Shown piece after piece: positions 3,123-23,787 of a stretch of DNA of 60,586 nt. A program made the position numbers and the translations under genes. The stretch comes from Phycisphaerae bacterium. GTDB taxonomy: Bacteria; Planctomycetota; Phycisphaerae; UBA1845. Position 1 is the first letter of the stretch, and every line of letters starts with the position of its first letter. The notes under the pieces are model-generated. The model was not told the origin of the DNA. It made no database searches and saw only the letters and a list, made by a program, of their open reading frames with translations. Location: the NCBI GenBank assembly GCA_029260035.1, contig JAJDEA010000088.1:1-60586 (forward strand). The letters are read 5' to 3'.

Positions 3123-4388
3123 TCATTCGTACAGCGGGAACTGATCGCACATCGCGCGGACTTCGCCATTGACTGCCTCGATCGTCGCTTCGTCGCCACC
3201 GCTTCTCAAAACGCGGTCGATCAGATTCGCGATGGTGCCCATCTCGCTTTCCTTCATGCCTCGTGTCGTGATCGCGGGCGTGCCGATTCGCAAGCCGCTT
3301 GTCTGCGTGGGCTTTCGCTCATCAAACGGGATCATGTTCTTGTTGACTACGATGCCCGCAGCGACGAGCCAGTTTTCCGCCATCTGCCCGGTGACGTCTG
3401 GGTAAGCGGGGCGAAGGTCCAAGAGCATCAGGTGGTTGTCGGTCCCGCCGGATACGACGCGGTTTCCGCCGCTCACCAGCCCCTCTGCCAGCGATTTGGC
3501 ATTATTTACGATCTGCTTTTGGTAGGTCTTGAATTCAGGCTTGAGCGCCTCGCCGAACGCTACGGCTTTGGCTGCAATGCAGTGCATGAGCGGCCCGCCC
3601 TGCGAGCCTGGGAAAATTCGCGAGTCGATTTTCTTAGCGAATTCCTCCTGGCAAAGAATAACGCCACCGCGCGGGCCTCGGAGCGTCTTGTGCGTCGTCG
3701 AGGTGACAAATGAAGCGGTGGGAACCGGGCTTGGATGTATACCCGCCGCGACCAGGCCTGCAATATGCGCGATGTCCGCCATGTGTTTGGCTCCGACTTG
3801 CTCTGCAATCTCGGAGAACCTGTCAAAATCGATCGTGCGCGGATAGGCGGACGCACCCGTGATAATCAACTTAGGCTTGTGCTCCTTCGCCAGTTTCTCG
3901 ATCTCGGCAAAATCGAACTGTTCCGTATCGCGATCCACACCATACGAAACGATGTTGTACAACAAGCCACTCATGTTCACCTTTAGCCCATGCGAAAGGT
4001 GTCCGCCATGGGCAAGATCGAGAGACAAAATCGTGTCACCCGGCTGAAGAAGGGCCAAATACACCGCAGCGTTGGCCTGACTTCCCGAGTGAGGCTGAAC
4101 ATTCGCGTGGTCACAGCCGAAGAGTTTCTTCACGCGGTCGCGCGCAAGATTCTCCACGACGTCCATGTTTTCGCACCCGCCGTAGTATCGCTTGCCCGGA
4201 TAGCCCTCGGCGTATTTATTGGTATAGACTGAGCCGAGCGCTTCCAGCACCGCCTGCGAAACGTGGTTCTCGGAAGCGATCAACTCGATCGTCTCTTGCT
4301 GTCTTTGGACTTCCGCGAGCATAGCCGGGTAAACTTCCGGGTCAGCGTCTGCGATGGCCTCAAAACTCGCTTTCGTAGCAATGGACAT
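3123..4388 (-). CDS. glyA: Serine hydroxymethyltransferase
   Basis: A PLP enzyme that interconverts serine and glycine and charges tetrahydrofolate with a one-carbon unit. The 421-residue length is typical. The PLP-lysine motif [14 protein letters not shown] lies near residue 233, and [21 protein letters not shown] near the N-terminus is the family's substrate-binding signature (key residues Tyr, Glu and Gly). The C-terminal part [14 protein letters not shown] is also classic. Single-copy housekeeping gene on the minus strand, followed by a convergent gene only 20 bases away. Complete and unremarkable. Confidence 0.97.
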
Positions 4389-4553: not shown

Positions 4554-5093
4554 TTACATCCCGTCTTCGAGGTCGACACCCAAGCCGTCGGCGATTCGGT
4601 TTATATAATTGAAATACGCGATGATTTGGGTTGCGTCGCTGATTGCGCGATCGTCCAGGCCTACCGAACGCAAATGGGCGACATCCTCTTCGGTCATCGC
4701 ACCGGGCGTGCGCGTAAGCTTTGCTGCATGATCGCAAAGAGCGCGGTCAACCGGCGTGAGTTTCGCCTTGGTATAGTCCGTCTTGATATGATTGACCCAC
4801 AACTGATCGTCGACCTCAGCCCGGAGGTCGTAAGCATGCGCAGCCGTTCAGTAATGGCATGAATTGACCTGCGAAACGACGACCGCGAGCATTTCCCGCT
4901 GTGCACGAGACAAGGGCGATTCACCCTTCATGAGCACCGCATATAGCCCCATGCTTCCCTGCAAGGCATGCGGGTTTTGGCCTTGAATCCGGAGAATATT
5001 AAAAACCCGGCCGGCTCGCTTAATGGCTGTGTCATACACACGCGCCAGCAGGCCCGTCGCTTCATTTTCGTTGTATGTCTTGATCCACGCCAT
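4554..5093 (-). CDS. AhpD-like peroxidase-related selenoprotein (in-frame TGA read as selenocysteine)
   Basis: Two open pieces in one frame, 81 codons and then 97, are joined by a single TGA at 4848-4850. Across it the protein reads as one 179-residue member of the AhpD/carboxymuconolactone-decarboxylase-like 'peroxidase-related' family, from MAWIKTYNENEATGLLARVY to YFNYINRIADGLGVDLEDG. The family motif is CxxCxxxH; here it is C79-H-Y-TGA82-T-A-A-H86, so the stop replaces exactly the second redox cysteine. A perfect 7-bp hairpin starts 17 bases after the TGA, as expected for a bacterial SECIS. I infer a CxxU selenoprotein thiol oxidoreductase. The alternative is a recent nonsense mutation. 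The machinery genes selA-selD are not in this window. Confidence 0.85.
4811..4830 (-). promoter_or_regulatory. Candidate bacterial SECIS hairpin
   Basis: On the minus strand, CGACCTC pairs perfectly with GAGGTCG around the six-base loop CGGGCT. The loop begins 24 bases after the TGA codon and has a G in its second position. Both features agree with published descriptions of bacterial SECIS elements (loop about 16-37 nt downstream, a G among the first two loop bases). SelB binding is inferred. Confidence 0.75.
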
Positions 5094-5160: not shown

Positions 5161-6270
5161 TCATTTAATTGTCACGTTAGATTGGTTTTCCACGAGGTAC
5201 GTGTATATGTCTTCGACATCTTGATTGTACATGCGTATGCAACCCATGGAAGAATTCGTGCCTATGGTTTCGGGCTCGATGGTTCCATGGATGCCATAGC
5301 GCTCCTGCCCTAGTGCCTCACCGCTAACACCTATCAGACCAATCCAGCATTCACCAAGTGGATTGCTCGGATCATCCGCTGCGACCACATCCCCGCCTCG
5401 CGGATGATAATAGGTCGGATTTCTCAGCTTCGTGCCGACGCGCCATTTTCCCGTCGGCGTACCACCCTCTTCGCCCAGCCCAACCTTGAAGCTTCTGACG
5501 AGCGTCTGACCCAAGTAAATGTCCATCGAAAAAGTACTCTTCTCGACGAAGGCCTGGAATGGCCCCTGGATGACCTTGATCGACCTGCCCGCGCGAATCA
5601 TGTTCTTGTTGGGGATGTTGTTCACGCTGGCCAGCAAGTCATCCGAGACGTTCCATTTCTTGGCAATTTTGGCGAGCGAATCGCCCGGGCGGATCGTATA
5701 TCGGCTGGCTAGCGGATCCCCGTCAACAACGCGCGAGGCGAAAACCGTCGCATTGCCCAATCGGGTAAGCTCAGCCCGCAGGAAAAGAGCATCCTGGCCC
5801 GTTGCACCGAGTTGCATTGCCTCACTGAAATGCGTTCTGGCAGGAATGAAGTCCTCGCGCGTCAGCGCTTGCTTGCCAGCTTCAATCAAGGACGCGATTT
5901 TCTCATTGGCGGAAACGCTCGCCTTGGGGCGCTCCGGCGAAGAACGGCTTGCGTCCGTACCACCCTTCTCGGTCACGCCGGGCGGCATGGAGGAATCGAC
6001 GTCGTCGGCCGGTCGGGTTGTGGTAAGCCGAACCCCAGGTTGATCGACTGGCGCGACGTCAGGGTTTTGTGTCGGCTCAGCCGGGTAAAGCCACCATCCG
6101 CCAGCCACAATTGACGTTAGGAAAATGAACGTGATGAAGTTGCGAGTTCCGTGATTTCGTCGGCGTCGTGCCACAGCTCGGCCTCCGTGCCAGTCGGTTG
6201 GGATGATCCATGTCGCCCGAGAAACGTTTGCGGCGTTTGGGCTATGCATTTCAGTGAATAGTGTAAACAA
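5161..6270 (-). CDS. LysM and L,D-transpeptidase (YkuD) domain protein
   Basis: A membrane-anchored cell-wall enzyme of up to 369 residues. An arginine-rich N-terminus precedes a membrane segment (FITFIFLTSIVAGGWWLY, near 45-62). A low-complexity linker and a short helical (TPR-like) stretch follow. A LysM domain (YTIRPGDSLAKIAKKWNVS) lies near 190-235, and the YkuD catalytic domain fills the C-terminus with HGT and SSMGCIRM, the active Cys near residue 343. L,D-transpeptidases form 3-3 crosslinks or attach proteins to peptidoglycan. The start is uncertain: 6270 or the Met at 6249. It lies 67 bases downstream of the selenoprotein start, same strand. Confidence 0.9.
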   Translation of the reverse strand: MFTLFTEMHSPNAANVSRATWIIPTDWHGGRAVARRRRNHGTRNFITFIFLTSIVAGGWWLYPAEPTQNPDVAPVDQPGVRLTTTRPADDVDSSMPPGVTEKGGTDASRSSPERPKASVSANEKIASLIEAGKQALTREDFIPARTHFSEAMQLGATGQDALFLRAELTRLGNATVFASRVVDGDPLASRYTIRPGDSLAKIAKKWNVSDDLLASVNNIPNKNMIRAGRSIKVIQGPFQAFVEKSTFSMDIYLGQTLVRSFKVGLGEEGGTPTGKWRVGTKLRNPTYYHPRGGDVVAADDPSNPLGECWIGLIGVSGEALGQERYGIHGTIEPETIGTNSSMGCIRMYNQDVEDIYTYLVENQSNVTIK

Positions 6271-12252: not shown

Positions 12253-12389
12253 CGTGTGTTCGGCCTAAATAGTTTCTGACGAAAGAAGTATTGTCGCCAT
12301 GGTGAGGCACAATCGCAAGTATCTTGCGTTAATTCGAGTAGATTGTCTCCGGGATCAAGGCGATGCAATGGCCTATCCGGACAGCCGTG

Positions 12390-12395
12390 TATAAT
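12390..12395 (+). promoter_or_regulatory. Possible -10 box (TATAAT)
   Basis: A perfect TATAAT lies 41 bases before the GTG start at 12436 of the Fe-S/TPR gene. It overlaps an in-frame ATG at 12394, which argues against using that ATG. The -35 region is weak. Confidence 0.4.
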
Positions 12396-12435
12396 GAGGC
12401 ATCGCATATGTTCTCGCACGGGACGGAATGAAGTC

Positions 12436-14616
12436 GTGACCAAGGAAGAAACAACCATTGACAGCGCACGCGCATCACAAACCTGCTCGGAGCGCGACGT
12501 CTCGCTGCCCGTCGTAACAGCCCCAAAAGCTCGCGTAAGGAAGTCGCGCACGAGCAAGTGGCGTGCGCTCGTGCTCATCTTGGTCCATCTTGCGATAATC
12601 GGACATTTCGCGCATTGGCGCATCGCTGGGAAAACGGTTTCTCCGATCGAACCATCCGAAGCGATGTATACGCTGAATCACGGTACGATCAACGCAGGCT
12701 TTCTTTTTTTCGCAATTTCCATAGCAGCGACGTTGGTCTTCGGTCGGTTTGTATGTGGGTGGGGTTGTCATTTCGTCGCATATCAGGATTTATGCACATG
12801 GCTTCTCAGGCGAATCGGTATCAAACCAAGACCTTTGCGATCACGCCTGCTTGTGCTAGCTCCTTTGATTCTGGCGCTGTACATGTTTGTTTGGCCTAGT
12901 GCGTATCGATGGTGGGTCGGCGCGCCTTGGCCTGAACTGAGTAATCATCTGCTTACCGAAGACTATTGGCAGACGTTTCCGGGGCCGATGATCGCGATCC
13001 TCTCTGTTCTCGTTTGCGGATTTGGCATCGTCTATTTTCTCGGCTCAAAGGGGTTTTGCACTTATGCGTGTCCATACGGCGGAGTTTTTGGCGCAGTCGA
13101 TCAGGTTTCACTCGGACGAATCGTTGTCAGCGACGCCTGCGAGCAATGTGGACATTGCACGGCGACCTGCAGCTCAAACGTCCGTGTGCATGAAGAAGTT
13201 GCATCCCATGGTATGGTCGTCGATCCAGGCTGCTTGAAGTGCATGGATTGTGTCAGCGTTTGCCCAAATGATGCGCTATCCTTTTCGCTACACAAGCCAA
13301 CTAAGAAACTTAGTAGAGTACCATCTTTTCGCCGTTTCGATCTAACAATCCGCGAAGAAGTTTTTCTGGCAGGCGTGGGAATGATCGCGTTTCTTGCGCT
13401 GCGCGGGTTGTACGATCAGATACCGCTTCTCTTTGCGATGGGACTAGCTGGCATAACAGGTCTTCTCGCGTCGAAGATGTGGCATCTTGTTGTGCGTGCG
13501 AACGTCAGATTTCAGAATCTGCAACTCAAACGCGGCGGAGCGTTAACAAAATCAGGACTTGTTGTCACAGCGTGCATGGCTTTGTGGTTCGTTTTTGTCG
13601 GACATGGGTTGGCTGTTCAATATTGCGCTTTGCGGGGCGAACGTCTTGCGAAATCGGTCTCATTGGGCGATGAAGTTTGGCATTTAGAGAACACCTGGTA
13701 CGCCAGCGCGAGTAGTGAAGACAAAGAAGCTGTTGAAGCCGCATCGCGTTTTCTTGAACGAACGGATCGATGGGGCCTGATGCTGACGCCTTCCGTATTG
13801 CAGCGACTTGTCTGGCTGTATCTTGCTCAAGGCCGGGTCGACGATGCCGAAATCGCAGTGCGTCGACTGATCGATCACGATCCTAATCGGGCGGAGTTGT
13901 ATCGAGGCTTGGCTGGTGTTCTCCGTCGGGCAGGTCGAGATGAAGAAGCCATTGCATACTATCAACATGCGCTCGAAGTCGATTCGTCACTCAGGGCTGC
14001 GCGCAACGACCTTGTGAAACTCCTGTTACAGCATGAGGATTATGAAAACGCTATCGGTGCGCTCCGTGCCGGGATTGTGACCCTATCAGACACAAACGAA
14101 TGGCGCGGGAAGCTTTGTCGGCTGCTCTTGGAATTGGGTAGGTCGGCAGAAGCCGACGCTGAGTTGTCCCGGTGGACAAAGGTTGATGAGGGGAACGCTC
14201 AAGCCTGGTTGATGCTCGGACTTCATCGATTGCAACAAGGCGATTTTCAGGCCGGCGTCTCGGCACTTGAGAATACCATTCATCTCAGACCGAACGCAGA
14301 TGAAGCTCATTACAATTTGGGGTTGGCTTTCTTAGGTCGAAAGGACATTTCCGAAGCGATCGGTCATCTGGAAAAAGCTGTTGAGCTTGCGCCAGAAAAA
14401 GCGTTGTATCATTACAATCTAGCTGTCGGCGCATTTATGAACAGCCAGATTGCTGCCGCTGAGATACACATTCGAGAAGCGATACGTCTTGCACCGTCGG
14501 ACACGGACGCCTATGGTTTTCTTGGAGTCGTCCTCGAAGCCTCGGGCGATGTCGATGGCGCTCTCGAGGCGAAGGCAGAAGCTCACCGCCTTGCGCGAGA
14601 AACCCCAACCCCCTGA
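12436..14616 (+). CDS. NapH/CcoG-like membrane ferredoxin fused to TPR domain
   Basis: About 726 residues from GTG 12436, chosen because upstream Met codons coincide with a -10 box. The N-terminal half has about five membrane helices with the redox motifs FVCGWGC (near 104) and CTYACPYG (near 208), then two 4Fe-4S clusters: CEQCGHCTATC (near 234) and CLKCMDCVSVCP (near 265). This is the NapH/NosR/CcoG architecture of membrane electron carriers. After another two helices the C-terminal ~300 residues form TPRs (AELYRGLAGVLRRAGRDEEA and similar). The fusion suggests an electron-transfer protein that also scaffolds partners. No dehydrogenase or oxidase genes are adjacent. Confidence 0.88.
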   Translation: MTKEETTIDSARASQTCSERDVSLPVVTAPKARVRKSRTSKWRALVLILVHLAIIGHFAHWRIAGKTVSPIEPSEAMYTLNHGTINAGFLFFAISIAATLVFGRFVCGWGCHFVAYQDLCTWLLRRIGIKPRPLRSRLLVLAPLILALYMFVWPSAYRWWVGAPWPELSNHLLTEDYWQTFPGPMIAILSVLVCGFGIVYFLGSKGFCTYACPYGGVFGAVDQVSLGRIVVSDACEQCGHCTATCSSNVRVHEEVASHGMVVDPGCLKCMDCVSVCPNDALSFSLHKPTKKLSRVPSFRRFDLTIREEVFLAGVGMIAFLALRGLYDQIPLLFAMGLAGITGLLASKMWHLVVRANVRFQNLQLKRGGALTKSGLVVTACMALWFVFVGHGLAVQYCALRGERLAKSVSLGDEVWHLENTWYASASSEDKEAVEAASRFLERTDRWGLMLTPSVLQRLVWLYLAQGRVDDAEIAVRRLIDHDPNRAELYRGLAGVLRRAGRDEEAIAYYQHALEVDSSLRAARNDLVKLLLQHEDYENAIGALRAGIVTLSDTNEWRGKLCRLLLELGRSAEADAELSRWTKVDEGNAQAWLMLGLHRLQQGDFQAGVSALENTIHLRPNADEAHYNLGLAFLGRKDISEAIGHLEKAVELAPEKALYHYNLAVGAFMNSQIAAAEIHIREAIRLAPSDTDAYGFLGVVLEASGDVDGALEAKAEAHRLARETPTP

Positions 14617-14870
14617 AATCAAGCCCATTGCCTCGCCATTCGCAATTCTGTTTGAGATGATCGCTCGAACGATTTTTATCTCCTGTCCACACGTCACGTT
14701 GTTGTCTCGCTGGAACCAGTTTTGCTCTGCTGAACCGCTATTCACGCGATCGCCAAATCTGGAATCGGCGTAGAGGAAGACAGAATGGGCAGGAGCTGGC
14801 GAGAAACTTGGATGCGAACCGATCGTGGCGTTCCTGCGTAACCCCTGTCATAACGAATCAAGGAAAGCGA

Positions 14871-16199
14871 GTGACTCGAAAAACTCCAAATGAACCGGCG
14901 TGTCCAAGAGTCATGATCCCGCTCCTCGACTACCAGCGCGCAGATATTGAGTGCCCCTCGCGATTTCGATGGAACTGTTGGTCGAGGCAAACCGGCAAGA
15001 GTTTTGCGAAGTCATTGCGTCGCATTTTGCGCGGCCTCACTCGCCGCCGCACGCAGGTGTTTCTGTCAGCCGGCGAACGGCAAAGTCGCGAGCTGATGCA
15101 AAAGGCGCGACAGCATTGTCAAGCGCTCAAAATAGCCACGGATTACTACGATAATCGGTACTTCAAAGACCTGAGCATTCGGCAGCTGGAAATCATCCTC
15201 CCGGGAAATGTTCGCATCATTGGGCTTCCTGCGAATCCGCAAACCGCACGCGGGTTTACCGGCGATGTTTTTCTCGATGAATTCGCAATGCATGCCTTCG
15301 ATCGCGAGATTTGGGCTGCCGTATTTCCGTCACTTCTTCGCGGCGACGGCGAACTTGACGTGGCTTCAACGCCTAAGGGTCGTAGCAACATGTTTTATGA
15401 ATTGCGCGACAATCCACAATTTTCAACCAGCATGTTGACGCTTCCTGATGCGATCGAGCAAGGCCTTGACGTTGACGCAGAGCAGATGCAAAAAGCCATG
15501 GGTGACGATGCACTCTATCGTCAGGAGTTTTTATGCGAATTTCTCGATGAGGCGTCGGCGTTTTTGACTTATGAACAAATCGCTGGTTGCGTTGAGCCAA
15601 CGCTCATCCCCTGCAACACCGTTAGCGCGTTAGCCAAGGAATTACGAGAGCTTTTTGTCGGCGTGGATGTTGGCCGATTGCATGACCTAACCGTAATCTG
15701 GGTCTTAGCAGGCTGCGAAAACCAATATGAGACGGTTGGGTTGTTTGAGCTGTCGCAGGCGCCTTTCCGGGCACAATCCGAGCTGCTGTCTGAAATCTTG
15801 AGTCTCAAAACAATACGGCGTTGTTGCATTGACGCAGGTGGATTGGGTATGCAGCTCGCGGAGCAGGCGGTTGAGCAATTCGGTCCACACCGCGTTGAAT
15901 CGGTGACATTTACATCTGCCCTCAAGTCACAATTAGCCACCTCTTTGCGTTTGGCAGTAGAGAGCAGACGGATTCGGATTCCTCATGACGATCGTATTCG
16001 CAGCGATTGGCACAGCGTCGAACGAACAATGACGGCCTCCGGGCATTTTCGGCTTGCTGCACCACGACGGGAAGGCAGCCATGCAGACCGCTTCTGGGCA
16101 GCCACGCTTGCGATTCATGCCGCTGACACTTCGCCAGCTGGGAAAATCGAACACATGAACGTCGGGCCTCTGCAATTCGCGCGGCGCGGCACCTGGTAA
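14871..16199 (+). CDS. Phage terminase large subunit (Mu gp28-like)
   Basis: The DNA-packaging motor ATPase/nuclease that opens the capsid cassette. GTG 14871 is preferred for its AAGGA site; a TTG at 14808 is possible. Walker A is SRQTGKS (near 36), Walker B VFLDEFAM (near 134), and the RNase-H-like nuclease shows VGVDVG (near 263), IDAGG and HADRFWA (near 403), so all catalytic acidic positions look present. The 442-residue length is close to Mu-type large terminases. No small terminase gene is visible upstream; the 254-base gap before it has nothing recognisable. Confidence 0.88.
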   Translation: MTRKTPNEPACPRVMIPLLDYQRADIECPSRFRWNCWSRQTGKSFAKSLRRILRGLTRRRTQVFLSAGERQSRELMQKARQHCQALKIATDYYDNRYFKDLSIRQLEIILPGNVRIIGLPANPQTARGFTGDVFLDEFAMHAFDREIWAAVFPSLLRGDGELDVASTPKGRSNMFYELRDNPQFSTSMLTLPDAIEQGLDVDAEQMQKAMGDDALYRQEFLCEFLDEASAFLTYEQIAGCVEPTLIPCNTVSALAKELRELFVGVDVGRLHDLTVIWVLAGCENQYETVGLFELSQAPFRAQSELLSEILSLKTIRRCCIDAGGLGMQLAEQAVEQFGPHRVESVTFTSALKSQLATSLRLAVESRRIRIPHDDRIRSDWHSVERTMTASGHFRLAAPRREGSHADRFWAATLAIHAADTSPAGKIEHMNVGPLQFARRGTW

Positions 16200-16228
16200 T
16201 GCAGTGGCCTTGAAAGGAGACGCTTCGA

Positions 16229-17503
16229 ATGAAATGGACGCAGCGACTTATTCACGCCATACGCCCGGCTGTTGAACCGAAACCAAAACTTGGGCGGGTC
16301 GTGTCACCAAGGGCTGAAGATTCGGTACGGGATTATCCCAGCTCCGGACTGACGCCATCTCGTCTGATGGCTATTCTGCACGAGGCGGATGACGGTTCAC
16401 TATCCAGCGCGATGCAGTTGTTCGAGGAAATGGAGGAGAAGGACGCTCATCTGTTCTCCGTCGCGAACACCAGAAGACTTGGTCTTTCCGGGCTGGATTG
16501 GCAAGTAATCAGTCTGGCTGACGTTCGTGAGGGTATCGACCGTGTTCGTGCAGAAGAGATAGCATCCTATTGTCGTGATATTCTCGCAGAAATCGACTCG
16601 TTCGACGAAGCGCTTCAGCATCTCGCGCTTGCGCTGGGACGCAACATCTCCATCGTTGAAATCGTCTGGGATATCGTACGGGGAGAGCTTCGACCCGTGG
16701 ACTTGGTTCCGGTTGATTTTACGCGCATCACATTCGACGAATTGGATCAACCGCGCATTCTTACCCAAGACGATCCAAAAACCGGCATCGCTTTGACACC
16801 GCGCAAATTTGTCGTTCACACGCCACACAGCGTTACCGGCCATCCTCAGCGTGGCGGGCTTCTGCGTGTCACTGCCATGGTCTATCTCGCGAAGAACCTC
16901 GCACTCAAAGACTGGATGACGTTTGCGGAGGTGTTTGGCATGCCCATCCGCATTGCTCGCTATGAACCCAACGCGACGGCCGAAGAAAAACGCGAGTTAC
17001 TCTCCATGCTGGAAACTCTCGGCTCTAATGCGGCTGGTATCTTCAGTCGGGCGGTGGAGCTTCAAATCGTCGAAGCCAATCGCGGCTCGACCGGACCTCC
17101 TTATCGCAAGCTAATCGAGTTTCTCAATCGTGAAATGAGTAAGGCATGGCTCGGACAAACGCTAACTACAGATATTGTAGGCCTAAGCGGCTCTGTTGCA
17201 GCCAGTCGAGTGCATGAAGAAGTTCGTCAGGACATCATCACGGATGACATTCGAAAGGAAGGCCGAACGATCCGTCGCGATCTTTTGCGCCCTTTGACTG
17301 AAATGCGCTTTGGCGCGGATGCACCGGTTCCGGTTTTCCGTCGGCAGCTCAAGCAAAGCACGGAAGTATCAGAACTTGCCGACATTCTGGATGCTGCGGT
17401 CAATCGTCTCGGCGTGAAAGTGCCAGAGGCCTGGGCGCGCGAAATGTTAGGCATTCCTTCCGTTCAGCAGGATGAGCCAACGTTGGCCGGTACACCCAGT
17501 TGA
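16229..17503 (+). CDS. Phage portal protein (DUF935, Mu gp29-like)
   Basis: The 424-residue protein fits the DUF935 portal family, which forms the dodecameric DNA gate at one capsid vertex. The pattern includes DAHLFSVANTRRLGLSGLDW near 70-90 and PRKFVVHTPHS followed by GLLRVTAMVYLAKNLALKDW, then FAEVFGMPIRIARY, all diagnostic of this family. It is shorter than Mu gp29 (about 510). A strong ribosome site (GAAAGGAG) precedes the ATG, 29 bases after the terminase stop. Mu normally encodes a gpF (SPP1 gp7-like) head protein next; none is present. Confidence 0.88.
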   Translation: MKWTQRLIHAIRPAVEPKPKLGRVVSPRAEDSVRDYPSSGLTPSRLMAILHEADDGSLSSAMQLFEEMEEKDAHLFSVANTRRLGLSGLDWQVISLADVREGIDRVRAEEIASYCRDILAEIDSFDEALQHLALALGRNISIVEIVWDIVRGELRPVDLVPVDFTRITFDELDQPRILTQDDPKTGIALTPRKFVVHTPHSVTGHPQRGGLLRVTAMVYLAKNLALKDWMTFAEVFGMPIRIARYEPNATAEEKRELLSMLETLGSNAAGIFSRAVELQIVEANRGSTGPPYRKLIEFLNREMSKAWLGQTLTTDIVGLSGSVAASRVHEEVRQDIITDDIRKEGRTIRRDLLRPLTEMRFGADAPVPVFRRQLKQSTEVSELADILDAAVNRLGVKVPEAWAREMLGIPSVQQDEPTLAGTPS

Positions 17504-17594
17504 TCGCCGAGAGCCACCACGCGAACAATCACTGCAGACGTTCTCTTGTGTAATCCACTCGGCACAAACGATTCTTGACAATGGATGAAAACTC

Positions 17595-18572
17595 ATGACA
17601 CGACGAAAGCAAAACGAGAAGTACGAAGATCGTGAGGTTAGCGCGTTTCGCTCGACCGATTTGACCGGCGAGGGAGTTCCGGCGCGTGTCCTTCTGGCAC
17701 CTTGGGGAGATGTCGAAAGCAGCAACGGCAGTTTTGTTGTAGACGATGAGTCAGCACGGCTCGCCCTCGACGCATTCGACGATCATGCCACCGATTTGCC
17801 AATCGACTACGAACACCAGACGCTTGGTGGCACCTACGCGGCACCGAGCGGAAAGGCTCCTGCGGCGGGCTGGGTCAAGAGAATGTTTGCCGAAACCGGT
17901 ATTGGGCTGTTGGCGGAAATTGAATGGACGGAGCAGGCTGAAGAACTGCTGGCCTCGAAGGAATATCGATATCTGTCACCCGTCGCCATTATCCGCAAGT
18001 CTGACCGAAAACTCGTAGCGATCCACTCGGCAGCTCTCACCAACAAGCCGGCAATCGTTGGAATGCAGCCGATTGTCAATCGCGAACAAAGTCATCATAT
18101 TGCCGTACAAATGGCACCGTTGCAGGAACTGCGCAAGGAATTGTGTCTTTCGGAGAACACTGACGCGGAGGAGGTTCTCGCCGCTGCAGGCAGACGGCTG
18201 ACGGAGCTTCGAGAGGATTCGAAGATGCGACGAGTCCAGGCTCGTGTCGAGGAAGCGGCGTGTGCTGGCAAGTTGGTCGAGGCACAGCGAGCCTGGGCTG
18301 AAGCGCTCGTAGCCCAAGAGGAAGAGCTGTTCGACGAATGGTTGCGGACGGCACCAGTCGTGGTCGTTCCGGGTGCGACGAGGCCCCCGGGCGGAGCTGG
18401 TTTAACCCAAGGCCGGGAACAGTCCGCTACAAACCGCGCCCGGGCGGAGTTTCGCTCCAACCCGCTGCTCGCCAGGCTCACAACAGAAAGCGCTTTCGTT
18501 AGCGACGCTTTGCGATCCCACGCTTTGCGGTCTACCACTACCAGCCGTAAAGCAGGAAACCACCAGAACTAA
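17595..18572 (+). CDS. Mu I-like head maturation protease/scaffold
   Basis: A 325-residue protein like Mu gpI. The protease part (FVVDDESARLALDAFDDHAT, PIDYEHQT near residue 70, AAGWVKRM, SKEYRYLSPVA and AALTNKPAIVGM) covers residues ~40-155. The C-terminal half is helical and charged, as in the scaffold that is cleaved during prohead maturation. The order portal-protease-decoration-major capsid matches Mu-type head operons. The 91-base gap before it lacks a strong Shine-Dalgarno sequence. Intact. Confidence 0.85.
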   Translation: MTRRKQNEKYEDREVSAFRSTDLTGEGVPARVLLAPWGDVESSNGSFVVDDESARLALDAFDDHATDLPIDYEHQTLGGTYAAPSGKAPAAGWVKRMFAETGIGLLAEIEWTEQAEELLASKEYRYLSPVAIIRKSDRKLVAIHSAALTNKPAIVGMQPIVNREQSHHIAVQMAPLQELRKELCLSENTDAEEVLAAAGRRLTELREDSKMRRVQARVEEAACAGKLVEAQRAWAEALVAQEEELFDEWLRTAPVVVVPGATRPPGGAGLTQGREQSATNRARAEFRSNPLLARLTTESAFVSDALRSHALRSTTTSRKAGNHQN

Positions 18573-18623
18573 TCAACCAGGCTCTTTTTCACAAGTCCAA
18601 TCAACTATAGAGGATGACAGAAC

Positions 18624-19388
18624 ATGGCACTAAGCACAAACAAAGATGTGGACCATTACATCGATCAGGAGCTGCGAACATTTCAAGTAGAGGGTACCGC
18701 TCATATTTACAAGGGCTCCCTTGTGGGCCTTGCTTCCACGGGTTATGCGCAGCCTCTGGCTGCAGGAGATCCGTTTGTTGGAATTGCATACGAAGAAATC
18801 GACAATACAAGTGGCGCAAACGGAGCCTTGACTGTCCGCGTTTACACACTCGGTGATTTCGGTCTCTCGCTGAGTGGGGCAGCTATCACGGACATCGGCC
18901 GGCCGGTCTTTGCCTCGGCCGACGATACTCTAACCTTTACCGGTGCGGGAAACTCGTACGTTGGAATTGTGCAGGATTTCGTCAAGGCAAGTGAAATCAT
19001 CTTGCGGATCGATCCAGGCCATAAGTTTATCAAGACGGTCATCCACACCGTCGAAGACCTGAGCGCCGGTGCGGACATCGCAGCACGTGCAGTCCACGGC
19101 TTTGATGCGGATGGATGGATCGTTTGCGCTCGGGCTACAAATCAGGCGACTGCGGCGGCGGGCATCGATAACAGCAACACATGTGTCATAACACTGGCAA
19201 CCGGAGCCGGCACGGTCGTTACCGAGACCTTCGACGCCACGACAACGTTTCCCGGTGCAAATTCCTCTGTCGATCTGGGCAGTGTAAGCAATGTGCATGT
19301 AGGTTCCGGCGATGTGATGACAGTAGCCGTAACCAATGGGGCCACGGCTGACCCCGGCCCGTTCCTGATCTGTGTTGATTACGTTTAG
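18624..19388 (+). CDS. Capsid decoration protein (DUF2190-like)
   Basis: The first ~135 residues match the DUF2190 pattern: an N-terminal stretch through VEGTAHIYKGSLVGL, then GYAQPLAAGDPFVGIAYEE and VRVYTLGDFGLSLSGAA. These small beta proteins stud the capsid surface. Residues 140-254 form an extra beta-rich domain ending with VGSGDVMTVAVTNGATADPG, perhaps a surface display domain (inference). The TAG stop (19386-19388) is the first three bases of repeat A copy 3. Confidence 0.75.
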   Translation: MALSTNKDVDHYIDQELRTFQVEGTAHIYKGSLVGLASTGYAQPLAAGDPFVGIAYEEIDNTSGANGALTVRVYTLGDFGLSLSGAAITDIGRPVFASADDTLTFTGAGNSYVGIVQDFVKASEIILRIDPGHKFIKTVIHTVEDLSAGADIAARAVHGFDADGWIVCARATNQATAAAGIDNSNTCVITLATGAGTVVTETFDATTTFPGANSSVDLGSVSNVHVGSGDVMTVAVTNGATADPGPFLICVDYV

Positions 19389-19482
19389 AGCAAGCTCTAT
19401 TTTTCTGTAGCGGTCGAGAGCATTCTTCTTCTCATGGATATTCGCAATTCGCCGCGACATATGATCGGTTCGTGGCTATAGC
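19386..19482 (+). repeat. Dispersed intergenic repeat A, copy 3 (inside capsid cassette)
   Basis: It begins TAGAGCAAGCTCTATTTTTC and ends GTTCGTGGCTATAGC, with the same spacing as copies 1 and 4. Its first three bases are the stop codon of the decoration gene. The palindrome followed by a T run could also act as a weak terminator. Confidence 0.75.
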
Positions 19483-19554
19483 GTCGCAACATTTTTTCAA
19501 GTCGGCGACACATCGCCGAGTCTTTTGTCTGTTCACTAAATAGGAGAGCCAGCC

Positions 19555-20478
19555 GTGGCGATTATCAATACCGGATTGCTTACCAAGGGACTGCGTAGCG
19601 AATTCTTCAATCGTTTCGATGCTACAACGACCTATTTTCAGGATCTGAGCACGCGGATCGAATCCAGCTCGGACACCGAGACCTACAAGTGGCTCGGTTC
19701 AGCACCGCGAATGCGGGAATGGGGTACCGGCCGAATTGCGCAGGGTATCGGCACTGAGTCGTATTCGGTCGAAAACCTCAAGTACGAGGCGACTTTGGAA
19801 GTCGATCGAGACGAGATCGCCGACGATAAGACGGGGCAGATTCGCATTCGTGTCGCAGAACTGGCATCTCGTGCGGCGTCTCACAAGGACTATCTGCTCG
19901 CGCAGCTTCTTATCAACGGCGACCAGGCAGGCTTTACCAGCTACGATGGTGCCGTTTTTTTCAGTAGCAATCATGTGTCCGGTTCGTCCGGCTCGCAGGA
20001 CAACCTCTTGACCAGCCCCGCGATTGACCCGAACGACCCCACAACGGAAGAATTCAAGATTGCTCTTAAGGCGGCGCTTTCGGCTATGCTGGGCTTCAAG
20101 GATGATCGCGGCGATCCGTTATCGATTGGCGCAACGGGACTTGTTTGCGTAGTGCCGACTTCATTGCACATGACGGCTCTGGAGGCAGTGAACGCGACGG
20201 TAATCAGCAATACGTCCAACATTCTCGAAGGCGTCGCGCAGGTTGTTCCATGCCCATGGCTTACCGCCACAGATGAATGGTACCTATTGAAAACCGACGG
20301 CGTCATTCGACCCTTTATGTTTCAGGATCGCGAGCCGGTGGAGTTCACAGCACTGACCGAAGAAAGTGATGAAGGATTCCGACGTGAAAAGTTCCTTTAC
20401 GGCGTACGCGCGCGATACCGCATGGCGTATGCGTATTGGCAGTTCGCCGTAAGCACCACATTCACTACGCCTTCGTAG
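19555..20478 (+). CDS. Major capsid protein (Mu gpT-like)
   Basis: A 307-residue protein from GTG 19555. The opening IINTGLLTKGLRSEFFNRFD, then RMREWGTGRIAQGIGTESYS, YEATLEVDRDEIADDKTGQ and the end MAYAYWQFAVSTT are characteristic of the Mu gpT major head family (HK97 fold). Its length is normal. GAGAGCC lies just upstream. This is the most diagnostic gene of the cassette and is intact, which argues for retained function or recent arrival. The TAG stop starts another TAGAGC sequence. Confidence 0.92.
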   Translation: MAIINTGLLTKGLRSEFFNRFDATTTYFQDLSTRIESSSDTETYKWLGSAPRMREWGTGRIAQGIGTESYSVENLKYEATLEVDRDEIADDKTGQIRIRVAELASRAASHKDYLLAQLLINGDQAGFTSYDGAVFFSSNHVSGSSGSQDNLLTSPAIDPNDPTTEEFKIALKAALSAMLGFKDDRGDPLSIGATGLVCVVPTSLHMTALEAVNATVISNTSNILEGVAQVVPCPWLTATDEWYLLKTDGVIRPFMFQDREPVEFTALTEESDEGFRREKFLYGVRARYRMAYAYWQFAVSTTFTTPS

Positions 20479-20639
20479 AGCGTGCTGTCAACGCTTGGGG
20501 TTGGTGGTGAAAGCGAACTCTGCTTTGTGAGACAGTCTCAATTTGGTATTTCCCGAGAGATCGTCTCGAAACAGCGTTACACAACTAGACATGAGCTTAA
20601 TCATCCGCGGTTCAAACTTCGGCACAAGGAGTCACATGG
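20479..20639 (+). repeat. Capsid-cassette spacer with degenerate repeat
   Basis: This 160-base gap holds AACTCTGCTTTGTGAGACAG and, further on, AGATCGTCTCGAAACAGCG. Both blocks align in order with the gap at 23788-23895 and partly with 21660-21755. They look like a diverged repeat A subtype. AAGGAG lies just before the next ATG. Confidence 0.5.
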
Positions 20640-21080
20640 ATGGCATACATAACGAACACCGCAATCCAGGAACGTCTCGGCAATTCGACCTATGTCCAGC
20701 TTGCCGATGACGATGGGGATGGACTGGCCGATGTTGAGGTTGTGGATGAAGTGCGCCTTGGGGCGGAAGGCGAAGTGAACAGCTACCTGGGCCAACGATT
20801 CGCTGTCCCGATCGACCTGGTGAAGTTTCCAGAACTTGCTGGCGTTCTCAAGACAATCTCGCTCGATCTGGCAGAGCATCGCCTGCGCGTGCGCCGACCA
20901 CCAATCCCAGCTTCGGCGATTCGGCAGCGCGACCAGGCGATTGACTGGCTCGCCAGGATTGCGGCAGGAACGCTTGCCCTGCCGGCGACAGGGGTTCCCT
21001 TGAGTAGCGACCGAAGTCCGATCGCGGATTCGGTGGGCGATGCCCGCATTCTGTCACGAGATGAACTTTCGGATTTCTGA
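20640..21080 (+). CDS. Head-tail connector (DUF1320, Mu gp36-like)
   Basis: A 146-residue protein starting MAYITNTAIQERLG with an acidic loop (DDDGDGLADVEV), then VRLGAEGEVNSYLGQRFAVP and LDLAEHRLRVRRPP. This is the DUF1320 pattern, a connector docking below the portal. Length is standard. It follows the major capsid gene, as in Mu-like phages. A connector implies that a tail or plug once joined, or still joins, the head. Confidence 0.82.
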   Translation: MAYITNTAIQERLGNSTYVQLADDDGDGLADVEVVDEVRLGAEGEVNSYLGQRFAVPIDLVKFPELAGVLKTISLDLAEHRLRVRRPPIPASAIRQRDQAIDWLARIAAGTLALPATGVPLSSDRSPIADSVGDARILSRDELSDF

Positions 21081-21173
21081 AGCAAGAGATGTCATCTGCA
21101 CCGTCCGCTGAATCAGACAATGGGCGCTGGGTTTAATCACCCGTTTATAACGCTTTGATGGAGGTTTACTCGA

Positions 21174-21659
21174 ATGGCTGCCACGCCGGATCGAACGACG
21201 ATACGAACAACGGTTGACTCCCTCGTGACAAACCTTCGAGCTAATCTGGTGGCTGAGCCACCGACGGCAACTAAGCCTTTTCGGATCATGGCGGTAGGCG
21301 ATGTCAAGTTCGACGAGCACACTCGGCCATTCCTGACGCTTTCGGTCGAACGAATTCGGCCAATCGGCACAACGCAGAACGACAAGATCCTGGAAGTACG
21401 GGCGACGTTTCGTATGGCGGCTGATATATCGGCTTCGGATCCGCACACGACGATCCTCGATAAGATTGGCGCACTGGAGGATCACTTCGATACGTTGATC
21501 GACATTGGTGTCGTCGAGGGGAGCGATGGGTTCGATGATCGGGAATGGCTTATCGATTATCCAAAATTTGCGTCCGGCATGCGTGTCGTTTCGGCGACAG
21601 CAACACAGTCATTCGTCGTTCGCGCGGAGCGTCTGCAGAATCGTATACCGGCGTCTTAG
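21174..21659 (+). CDS. Probable neck/tail-completion protein
   Basis: A 161-residue protein placed where Mu-like phages encode gp37-type tail-terminator proteins. It has an N-terminal helix (RTTVDSLVTNLRANLV), then beta strands with RPFLTLSVERIRPIG and a central IGALEDHFDTLIDIGVVEG, a pattern seen in tail-terminator proteins. I cannot name the family with certainty. GGAGG precedes the start. Role inferred from position. Confidence 0.6.
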   Translation: MAATPDRTTIRTTVDSLVTNLRANLVAEPPTATKPFRIMAVGDVKFDEHTRPFLTLSVERIRPIGTTQNDKILEVRATFRMAADISASDPHTTILDKIGALEDHFDTLIDIGVVEGSDGFDDREWLIDYPKFASGMRVVSATATQSFVVRAERLQNRIPAS

Positions 21660-21755
21660 CGCAGGGTTTTTCTGTGCTGCCTTTATGGCGGTTCTTCTCG
21701 CAAGTTGCCTCGAAGCAGCGATACACAAGACACGAGAATGCTATAGGAAACCAAG
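21660..21755 (+). repeat. Capsid-cassette spacer with degenerate repeat
   Basis: It contains GGGTTTTTCTGTGCTGCC and then CTCGAAGCAGCGATACAC, blocks related to those at 20479-20639 and 23788-23895, and ends with AATGCTATAGG, recalling the GCTATAGC right end of repeat A. Confidence 0.45.
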
Positions 21756-22202
21756 ATGAATTGGATTCTCGCAACACGAGGTGCGACTACAAAACTGCGG
21801 ATTTCCCCTTTTACTGAAACCGAAATCGAAGGGGTCCACAGCGTAGTTTACAAGCCTGGCATCGAACCGATTCCTTTCTCTGGTAACGACGTAGCGACCG
21901 GGCCTTTGGGTACGTTTGGCCGAGGCGTTCACCGAATTTCGGGCTTCGTTTTCTCTTACGATGGGTCGGCGGCCGAGACGCTTTTTTCCGTCACACAGTC
22001 GATTGATCTCGTCATTCGATACCGCGCGAGCGGCGAAAAGCGCAAGCGGACATTGTCGGATGCGGCTTTTCTTGGAGACGCTGTCGTGACTGTTCCATCG
22101 CTGAACACGGGAGTATCCGAACTCATTGGTGTTCCGTTTCGGATTCAGATTCCGGACACGGATTCACTTGGAAATCACGTTACAGACATAGTGGAGCCGT
22201 AA
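21756..22202 (+). CDS. Phage structural protein, unknown
   Basis: A 148-residue beta-rich protein. It lies three bases ahead of the next gene and directly after the neck candidate. SVTQSIDLVIRYRASGEKRK and TVPSLNTGVSELIGVPFRIQ suggest a small sandwich or tube-like subunit. A minimal tail-tube role would fit the position, but no family was recognised and there is no tape-measure gene to go with it. Confidence 0.6.
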   Translation: MNWILATRGATTKLRISPFTETEIEGVHSVVYKPGIEPIPFSGNDVATGPLGTFGRGVHRISGFVFSYDGSAAETLFSVTQSIDLVIRYRASGEKRKRTLSDAAFLGDAVVTVPSLNTGVSELIGVPFRIQIPDTDSLGNHVTDIVEP

Positions 22203-22205
22203 TAC

Positions 22206-22652
22206 ATGGCCGTGAACACGTCCCAATTGATCGACGCGGCGCAGGTCGGATTTGCCGCACAGCAAAATGAACTGTCAGAGATTCGCGCTCGCCAACCAAT
22301 GTCCGTAACAAGCAAGACGTCTACCGGCACAGCAAACATAAACGTTGCGTTTAATCTGGATCGCGTTTTTCGGTTGGTGTACGTTCGTTGTCACTTTTCT
22401 GGATCTCCGGGCGTAGACCAGCTGACATTATCGTTGGATTCGGCCAACGGCGCAACCTACGACACTGACCTTTATTCGATAACAAGCGCTGGCACCGGCA
22501 GTGATGTCAACTTTCGCATTTCAGCACAGGAAAGCGCAGAGCCATCTGCCTGGACGTTTCAATCCGGCGATGCACTAAGGGTCCAATGGACGAACCCGGA
22601 CAGCGGCAACATTACCTGGGGACTTGAAGTTGGACTCGCAATTGCTTCTTAA
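22206..22652 (+). CDS. Phage structural protein, unknown
   Basis: A 148-residue protein with a short helical N-terminus followed by a jelly-roll-like beta domain (VFRLVYVRCHFSGSPGVDQL, then DALRVQWTNPDSGNITWGLE). Such domains occur in virion surface or fibre proteins that bind receptors or carbohydrates. Translationally coupled to the upstream gene (gap of three bases). No family was recognised. Confidence 0.6.
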   Translation: MAVNTSQLIDAAQVGFAAQQNELSEIRARQPMSVTSKTSTGTANINVAFNLDRVFRLVYVRCHFSGSPGVDQLTLSLDSANGATYDTDLYSITSAGTGSDVNFRISAQESAEPSAWTFQSGDALRVQWTNPDSGNITWGLEVGLAIAS

Positions 22653-22755
22653 GGCCTAACTCTATTTTCTGTTGCGGTCGCATCTTTGTTAGTGCGGCTT
22701 GAATAGCTCATAGCGGCTTTGCGAATGAAACGCGAGCTACATAAGGACAAACCCA
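22653..22755 (+). repeat. Capsid-cassette spacer with degenerate repeat A
   Basis: The segment AACTCTATTTTCTGTTGCGG closely follows the left end of repeat A (CTCTATTTTTCTGTAGCGG at copy 3). The right end is lost apart from CTCATAGCGG. Confidence 0.5.
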
Positions 22756-23787
22756 ATGCCTCTCACCGATCGATCCGACAGCCTGGACACGCGGAACCTG
22801 ACCGTTCATGACTTGCTCGAACTGGCGGCGGACACGCCGATCGAGTTCAAGGAGATGGCTGCACCGGCAACACCAGCCACCGGATCAGTCGTAGTCTACG
22901 CAAAGACTGACGGAAAACTCTATGCCAAAGACGACGTCGGTACGGAGTCCAATCTGACAGCTGGCGGCGCCGGCGAGGCCAATACTGCGAGCAATGTTGG
23001 CACAGGCGGCGTCGGTGTCATCGAAAGTAAGGTAGGCGACGATCTTCAATTTCGTAGCGTAAACGCTGGCTCCGCGAAAATTGCCGTATCACTCGACGCA
23101 GCGAACAAGGAAGTAGACATTGATCTCGGTGTCGTTGCTTCCACAGACTTGTCAGACAGCGGAAGCCTATACCGTTCTTCAGGAACAGACGTCGCCATTG
23201 CAGATGGCGGCACAGGCTCCAGTTCAGCGTCCGGCGCTCGAACTAACCTGGGTCTTGGCATTGGCACGGACGTCCAGGCCCATGACACTGATCTTGATGC
23301 AATCGCCGCGGTCAACACAAACGGATTGGTCGCCCGAACCGGGGCTGGTACTGCAGCTTCGCGCACCGTGCTCGCCGGCACGGGGATCAGCGTTACCAAT
23401 GGCGACGGCTCAGCCGGCGATCCCTCGATAAACCTGGCAACGAAGTCGCGGACAGTAACCAAAATCGTATACATTGAGTTTCCGACCGCTTCCGATTCTC
23501 TACCCGTTGCCTTTCTCGCTGATGACGTCACCTTCGTGCAGGTGCGCGGCGTAACCGACACCGGCACCGTAGACTTCAACATCGAAAGGCGGGCCACGAA
23601 TACACCTGACGCAACTGGAACTGATATCCTGTCCGCTGATCTGCAAGCTACGTCTGCTGGCGCTTCGACCAGCTCATTTGCAACAAGTGGGGCGGTCGCT
23701 GGCGAACAATGGCTGCACTACAGTTCTAGTGCCGTATCCGGGACACCCACCAAGCTATGGGTGGCACTGGAATTCACAATCGACTAA
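22756..23787 (+). CDS. Phage fibre-like structural protein
   Basis: A 343-residue, Gly/Ala/Thr/Asp-rich protein. The middle (VAIADGGTGSSSASGARTNL, then GTDVQAHDTDLDAIAAV and LAGTGISVTNGDGSAGDPSI) is the repeat style of tail-fibre and tail-spike shafts. The N-terminus (RNLTVHDLLELAADTP) may be the anchoring part, and the last ~110 residues a globular tip. It could be a head fibre as readily as a tail fibre, given the missing tail genes. Confidence 0.7.
   Translation: MPLTDRSDSLDTRNLTVHDLLELAADTPIEFKEMAAPATPATGSVVVYAKTDGKLYAKDDVGTESNLTAGGAGEANTASNVGTGGVGVIESKVGDDLQFRSVNAGSAKIAVSLDAANKEVDIDLGVVASTDLSDSGSLYRSSGTDVAIADGGTGSSSASGARTNLGLGIGTDVQAHDTDLDAIAAVNTNGLVARTGAGTAASRTVLAGTGISVTNGDGSAGDPSINLATKSRTVTKIVYIEFPTASDSLPVAFLADDVTFVQVRGVTDTGTVDFNIERRATNTPDATGTDILSADLQATSAGASTSSFATSGAVAGEQWLHYSSSAVSGTPTKLWVALEFTID

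Follow-up and report, generated by a model that had tools for sequence, protein, structure and literature searches.

An apparently stop-broken AhpD-like gene of a phycisphaeral planctomycete almost certainly encodes a selenoprotein

Introduction

An AhpD-like gene in the DNA studied here is interrupted by a single in-frame TGA at its presumed active site, which raises the question of whether the gene is broken or whether it encodes a selenoprotein. The window, by which we mean the whole stretch of 60,586 nucleotides that was analysed, is contig C258 of a Phycisphaerae MAG of 4.93 Mb (94.6% complete). The first-pass annotation had located the gene correctly at 4554-5093, leaving its strand (minus) unstated.

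AhpD-like selenoproteins are on record from several surveys. The Sargasso Sea survey of 2005 described AhpD-like CxxU selenoproteins with 27 sequences (PMC1088965). The GOS survey of 2008 counted 299 Sec and 902 Cys sequences for AhpD-like 1 (COG2128), and 70 Sec and 207 Cys sequences for AhpD-like 2 (pfam02627) (PMC2398784), while a 2026 review has an entry for 'AhpD-like protein, TIGR01926, CxxU' (PMC13188914). The window protein thus belongs to an already known family, and not to a rare one. The first-pass annotation had called such proteins known but rare; the former holds, but the latter does not, given the 299 and 70 GOS sequences and the presence of Sec in all of the best 80 of 484 GTDB matches. 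With this family the window gene shares the CxxU motif, a single Sec and a bacterial SECIS directly downstream, and nothing fundamental is different. What it adds to the surveys is a phycisphaeral member in an assigned genome whose machinery is complete, and a subclade that yielded no Cys orthologue beyond 40% identity. A literature search on planctomycetal selenoproteins found nothing relevant.

Results

Reading frame and conservation of the UGA

When the TGA is translated as U, the gene reads as one uninterrupted frame of 179 residues in which codon 82 is the sole TGA (Table 1). The surrounding motif, N-S-C79-H-Y-U82-T-A-A-H86, is a CxxU with His at +4. Retranslation therefore agrees with the first-pass annotation, which had described a lone in-frame TGA at the second redox Cys of an otherwise open AhpD/peroxidase-related frame. 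It had also expected automated annotation to split the gene, and the ORF list indeed shows two ORFs, 4848-5093 and 4554-4802. As a separate observation, all 28 orthologues use TAC, and never TAT, for Tyr81 (4851-4853, just before the UGA); this constancy may reflect an influence of codon context on how the UGA is decoded.

Table 1. Features of the AhpD-like locus in window coordinates
Feature	Position	Strand	Basis or remark
AhpD-like (peroxidase-related, TIGR01926) gene, predicted selenoprotein	5093 (ATG)..4554; TAA 4556..4554	minus	179 aa; profile match, conservation, model
In-frame UGA (U82), second residue of the C79-x-x-U82 redox motif	4850..4848	minus	TGA in every orthologue inspected
Codon of presumed resolving Cys79 (CxxU motif)	4857..4859	minus	invariant in 33-sequence alignment
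Bacterial SECIS hairpin, CGACCTC-CGGGCT-GAGGTCG	4830..4811	minus	frozen codons, compensatory stem pairs
LysM + YkuD L,D-transpeptidase, directly upstream	5161..6270	minus	same strand as the selenoprotein gene
Serine hydroxymethyltransferase (glyA, SHMT), downstream	3123..4388	minus	same strand

Most of the 60 relatives searched hold homologues whose only internal stop is a single TGA, and a TGA is found at the site in every match above about 40% identity that spans it. In each of 30 homologues taken from related genomes, the TGA stands in a C-x-Y-U-x-x-x-H context, again with no other stop. An alignment-based scan of GTDB genomes gave 484 confirmed relatives, the best 80 of which were examined: 80 of 80 have TGA at codon 82 and no other stop. 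These best 80 of 484 come from Phycisphaerae and other Planctomycetota, from Chloroflexota (Anaerolineae, Roseiflexaceae, Ardenticatenales), and from Acidobacteriota, Candidatus Neomarinimicrobiota, Calditrichia, a gemmatimonadete and an acidimicrobiian MAG. Hence, every homologue inspected (n=110, 30 + 80) has TGA at the identical codon, in independent assemblies and across several phyla. The check that the first-pass annotation had proposed, for Cys or TGA at the site and for scattered stops or frameshifts in relatives, thus turned up close relatives with TGA at exactly codon 82 and free of scattered stops and frameshifts.

A Cys orthologue of more than 40% identity was not seen among the relatives searched or the best 80 of 484 GTDB matches, the latter being the basis for this statement outside Planctomycetota. 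G193, a genome that is 100% complete and has no selB match, holds a homologue of 40% identity in which the U82 position is Cys, the local sequence being CTKYC (CxxxC); together with the TGA type, this homologue gives the Sec/Cys pairing that a true selenoprotein should show.

Two further features of the relatives are recorded here. L138 (G046:C1:402702-403367) and the homologues in G013, G027, G053, G054, G109 and G135 have an in-frame insertion of variable length just past the SECIS hairpin, near residue 98. G002 holds, about 1.3-1.5 kb downstream of its intact TGA copy, a second, apparently decayed C-terminal fragment with TAG in frame (L137, G002:C164:6709-6930), apparently a local duplication in decay.

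The SECIS hairpin

The hairpin downstream of the UGA has seven perfect pairs; the stem starts 17 nt past the UGA, and the loop follows at 24 nt. The first-pass annotation had reported such a perfect 7-bp hairpin with a G at loop position 2, and the G in fact spans loop positions 2-4. For the single sequence, the local fold of this region is barely better than that of shuffled sequence (z = -1.16), and an Rfam search of the hairpin produced nothing resembling a SECIS, just a miRNA model matched by chance. The case for a selenoprotein consequently rests on comparison.

The comparative evidence is decisive. Inside the hairpin, Leu90 is CTC and Glu93 is GAG in 28 of 28 orthologues each, and Arg91 is only ever CGG or CGT among the same 28. 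By comparison, the share of CTC is about 40% or less in the remaining well-conserved Leu columns (at most 10 of 27 sequences), and over the window as a whole 21% of Leu codons are CTC. Across 92 distinct hairpin sequences, six stem pairs are standard in 92-99%; only two thirds retain the seventh pair, which is the outermost in the window hairpin. Pair 23-36 occurs as C-G (80), T-A (5) and T-G (3), and pair 24-35 as C-G (85), T-A (4) and T-G (1); these are compensatory C-G to T-A changes with G-U intermediates. In Neomarinimicrobiota, a Leu-to-Phe change at pair 24-35 (CTC to TTC) is accompanied by a silent GAG-to-GAA change, so that the RNA stem couples a silent substitution to a coding one. 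The hairpin is therefore under selection at the RNA level, as its frozen codons and compensatory pairs demonstrate. Furthermore, 20 Cys homologues scanned likewise have weak hairpins, with a median stem score of 7.25 versus 16.75 in Sec forms (Mann-Whitney P 4e-9), a supporting control only, as these Cys homologues are distant (about 25-35% identical). The kinship of the compared sequences makes P values overstate independence. The fit to bacterial SECIS rules claimed in the first-pass annotation is seen both in the small apical loop with G just downstream of the UGA (PMC1088965) and in the frozen, co-varying stem.

Selenocysteine machinery

The host's selenocysteine machinery is complete. On contig C54, selB (378 bits, cut-off 242) adjoins selA (564 bits, cut-off 268), and contig C91 carries a single tRNA-Sec, with a UCA anticodon, that passes the Rfam cut-off. 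The start of selD is found on C248 (about 72.3 kb, minus strand), where the N-terminus reads CAG-U-AGK, with an in-frame TGA at the usual SelD Cys/Sec place; the N-terminal third of this gene is readable, the remainder of the contig being masked with N. The look-up of selA, selB, selC and selD that had been suggested thus found all of them.

Co-occurrence was assessed across 147 planctomycete genomes that are 90% complete or more, the window's own excluded, with the TGA form called at E <= 1e-14. The TGA form is present in 67 of the 147, and 65 of those 67 have selB; 34 other genomes have selB only and 46 have neither, so the TGA form tracks selB (Fisher P about 8e-14). The two TGA-form genomes with no selB match are both MAGs, and selA is absent in G002 (98% complete). 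Presumably, these missing genes reflect missing contigs.

The same genome holds other AhpD-family genes. L002 (G000:C138:54385-54915, plus strand) is a second AhpD-family selenoprotein, 45% identical, with the motif CHYU-LQHHGAGL and a different hairpin, GGAGC-GGG-GCTCC, whose loop lies about 17-20 nt after the TGA. L004 (G000:C199:35361-35873, minus strand) is a third, distant candidate (26% identical) with CVHU-TASH and its own hairpin, and a fourth copy (L001 on C179) has CRYC and no TGA. Judged by these sequences, three or more AhpD-family selenoproteins are encoded in this genome, the third as a candidate, together with a Sec-containing SelD.

Family, fold and active site

The best family match is TIGR01926 (151.9 bits versus a cut-off of 81.8, residues 3-173), and Pfam matches the protein to CMD. 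NF041238 (AhpD_rel_CFYUT), likewise a model of an AhpD-related CxxU selenoprotein, gives the window protein 73.2 bits, well below the cut-off of 175 bits. In a 33-sequence alignment, the protein is strongly conserved outside the U82 codon. The AlphaFold model built with 33 homologues is all helical (pLDDT 96.5, pTM 0.91), and its nearest solved structures are the peroxidase-related AhpD proteins 6k40, 2oyo, 2prr, 2pfx and 3c1l, with Z of 25.3-25.8 over 174-179 residues (25.8 for 6k40, 25.6 for 2oyo). These Cys proteins resemble the window protein over the full-length fold (Z 25-26) at 26-35% identity and have the same active-site layout, but carry CxxC and no UGA. Sestrin matches from VIA-align and Foldseek were taken as known distant AhpD-fold kinship and not as an indication of function.

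PA0269 has a five-residue proton relay of Glu36, Cys48, Tyr50, Cys51 and His55 (PMC3141380), which Glu67, Cys79, Tyr81, Sec82 and His86 match with identical spacing. The protein is thus predicted by the model to be an AhpD fold with a complete proton-relay set and Sec in place of the second Cys. M. tuberculosis AhpD (1gu9, 1knc) likewise has a Glu-Cys-x-x-Cys-His proton relay and the CMD helix hairpin, but differs in topology, in its about 10% identity (Z 12) and in having His at the Tyr81 position.

Genomic neighbourhood

Among the best 80 of 484 loci, an L,D-transpeptidase gene is the immediate upstream neighbour in 13, all Planctomycetota/Phycisphaerae, and SHMT lies downstream in 4, all close relatives. 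Co-transcription of the L,D-transpeptidase gene with the selenoprotein gene is possible. Clustering of neighbours over these 80 loci gave no partner gene conserved across phyla; because the neighbours differ in other phyla, no functional partner is inferred from either gene. Elsewhere in the window, 14808-23787 (plus strand) holds a Mu-like phage head module (terminase large subunit, Portal_Mu, head protease, virion structural protein, major head protein, head-tail adaptor), which may be a remnant prophage or a domesticated particle. Ahead of it, at 12343-14613 (plus strand), lies a gene whose product has 4Fe-4S ferredoxin domains and, after these, many TPR repeats.

Discussion

We are highly confident that the gene encodes an AhpD-like, peroxidase-related selenoprotein, in which UGA would be read as Sec82 by way of SelB and the hairpin, with peroxidase chemistry suggested by homology. 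SelB carrying Sec-tRNA would bind the hairpin 17 nt after the UGA, such that selenocysteine is inserted at position 82 in place of termination. The product would be an all-helical thiol/selenol oxidoreductase of the AhpD fold. By homology, Sec82 would attack and reduce a (hydro)peroxide or similar substrate, a role that we assume by analogy with M. tuberculosis AhpD; Cys79 would then resolve Sec82 through an S-Se bond, with Glu67, Tyr81 and His86 as the likely proton relay and a thiol reductant regenerating the enzyme.

Two other readings would do away with the selenocysteine. The TGA could be a nonsense mutation in a pseudogene, or a sequencing or assembly error in a Cys-type AhpD gene, as might be suspected of a single MAG contig on which annotation would split the gene into two ORFs. 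However, the same-codon TGA with no other stop in 110 of 110 homologues, from several phyla and independent assemblies, and the strong conservation of the rest of the protein make this very improbable. Still more improbable is a genome-wide recoding (e.g. TGA as Trp), which would turn the TGA into an ordinary sense codon and account for its being read through in the inferred protein. Within the window, TGA terminates 11 of 29 long genes, showing that it is also an ordinary terminator and that the genome is not recoded, and TGG is used 138 times; moreover, homologues have Cys at the position, and a tRNA-Sec with a UCA anticodon is present.

A third reading accepts Sec but assigns the protein to another kind of AhpD-fold redox enzyme, such as a disulfide or adaptor protein or a Bmp8-like reductive dehalogenase. 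The debrominase Bmp8 is among the AhpD-fold matches (Z 19.6), the cellular function of TIGR01926 is poorly tested, PA0269 is merely a weak peroxidase (PMC3141380), and the gene neighbours vary between phyla. Against this, the closest folds and sequences are those of peroxidase-related and alkyl hydroperoxide reductase proteins, and the AhpD proton-relay set is complete. We regard a non-peroxidase role as rather unlikely, and favour a peroxidase-related selenoprotein.

Most Sec families have more Cys homologues than Sec forms. That the close clade lacks Cys orthologues may be the sole new point of this case. As none above 40% identity was seen, the chemistry of the enzyme may really need selenium; we tentatively raise the possibility, a little short of an even chance, that this subclade is (nearly) obligately selenoprotein across at least five phyla.

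Taken together, an apparently stop-broken planctomycete gene almost certainly encodes an intact antioxidant-type enzyme with an active-site selenocysteine. It is a clean, well supported case of what standard annotation splits or discards, from a phylum whose selenoproteins are little described. With a conserved TGA and no close Cys substitute, whether selenocysteine is needed by some enzymes or merely tolerated becomes testable on one small soluble protein.
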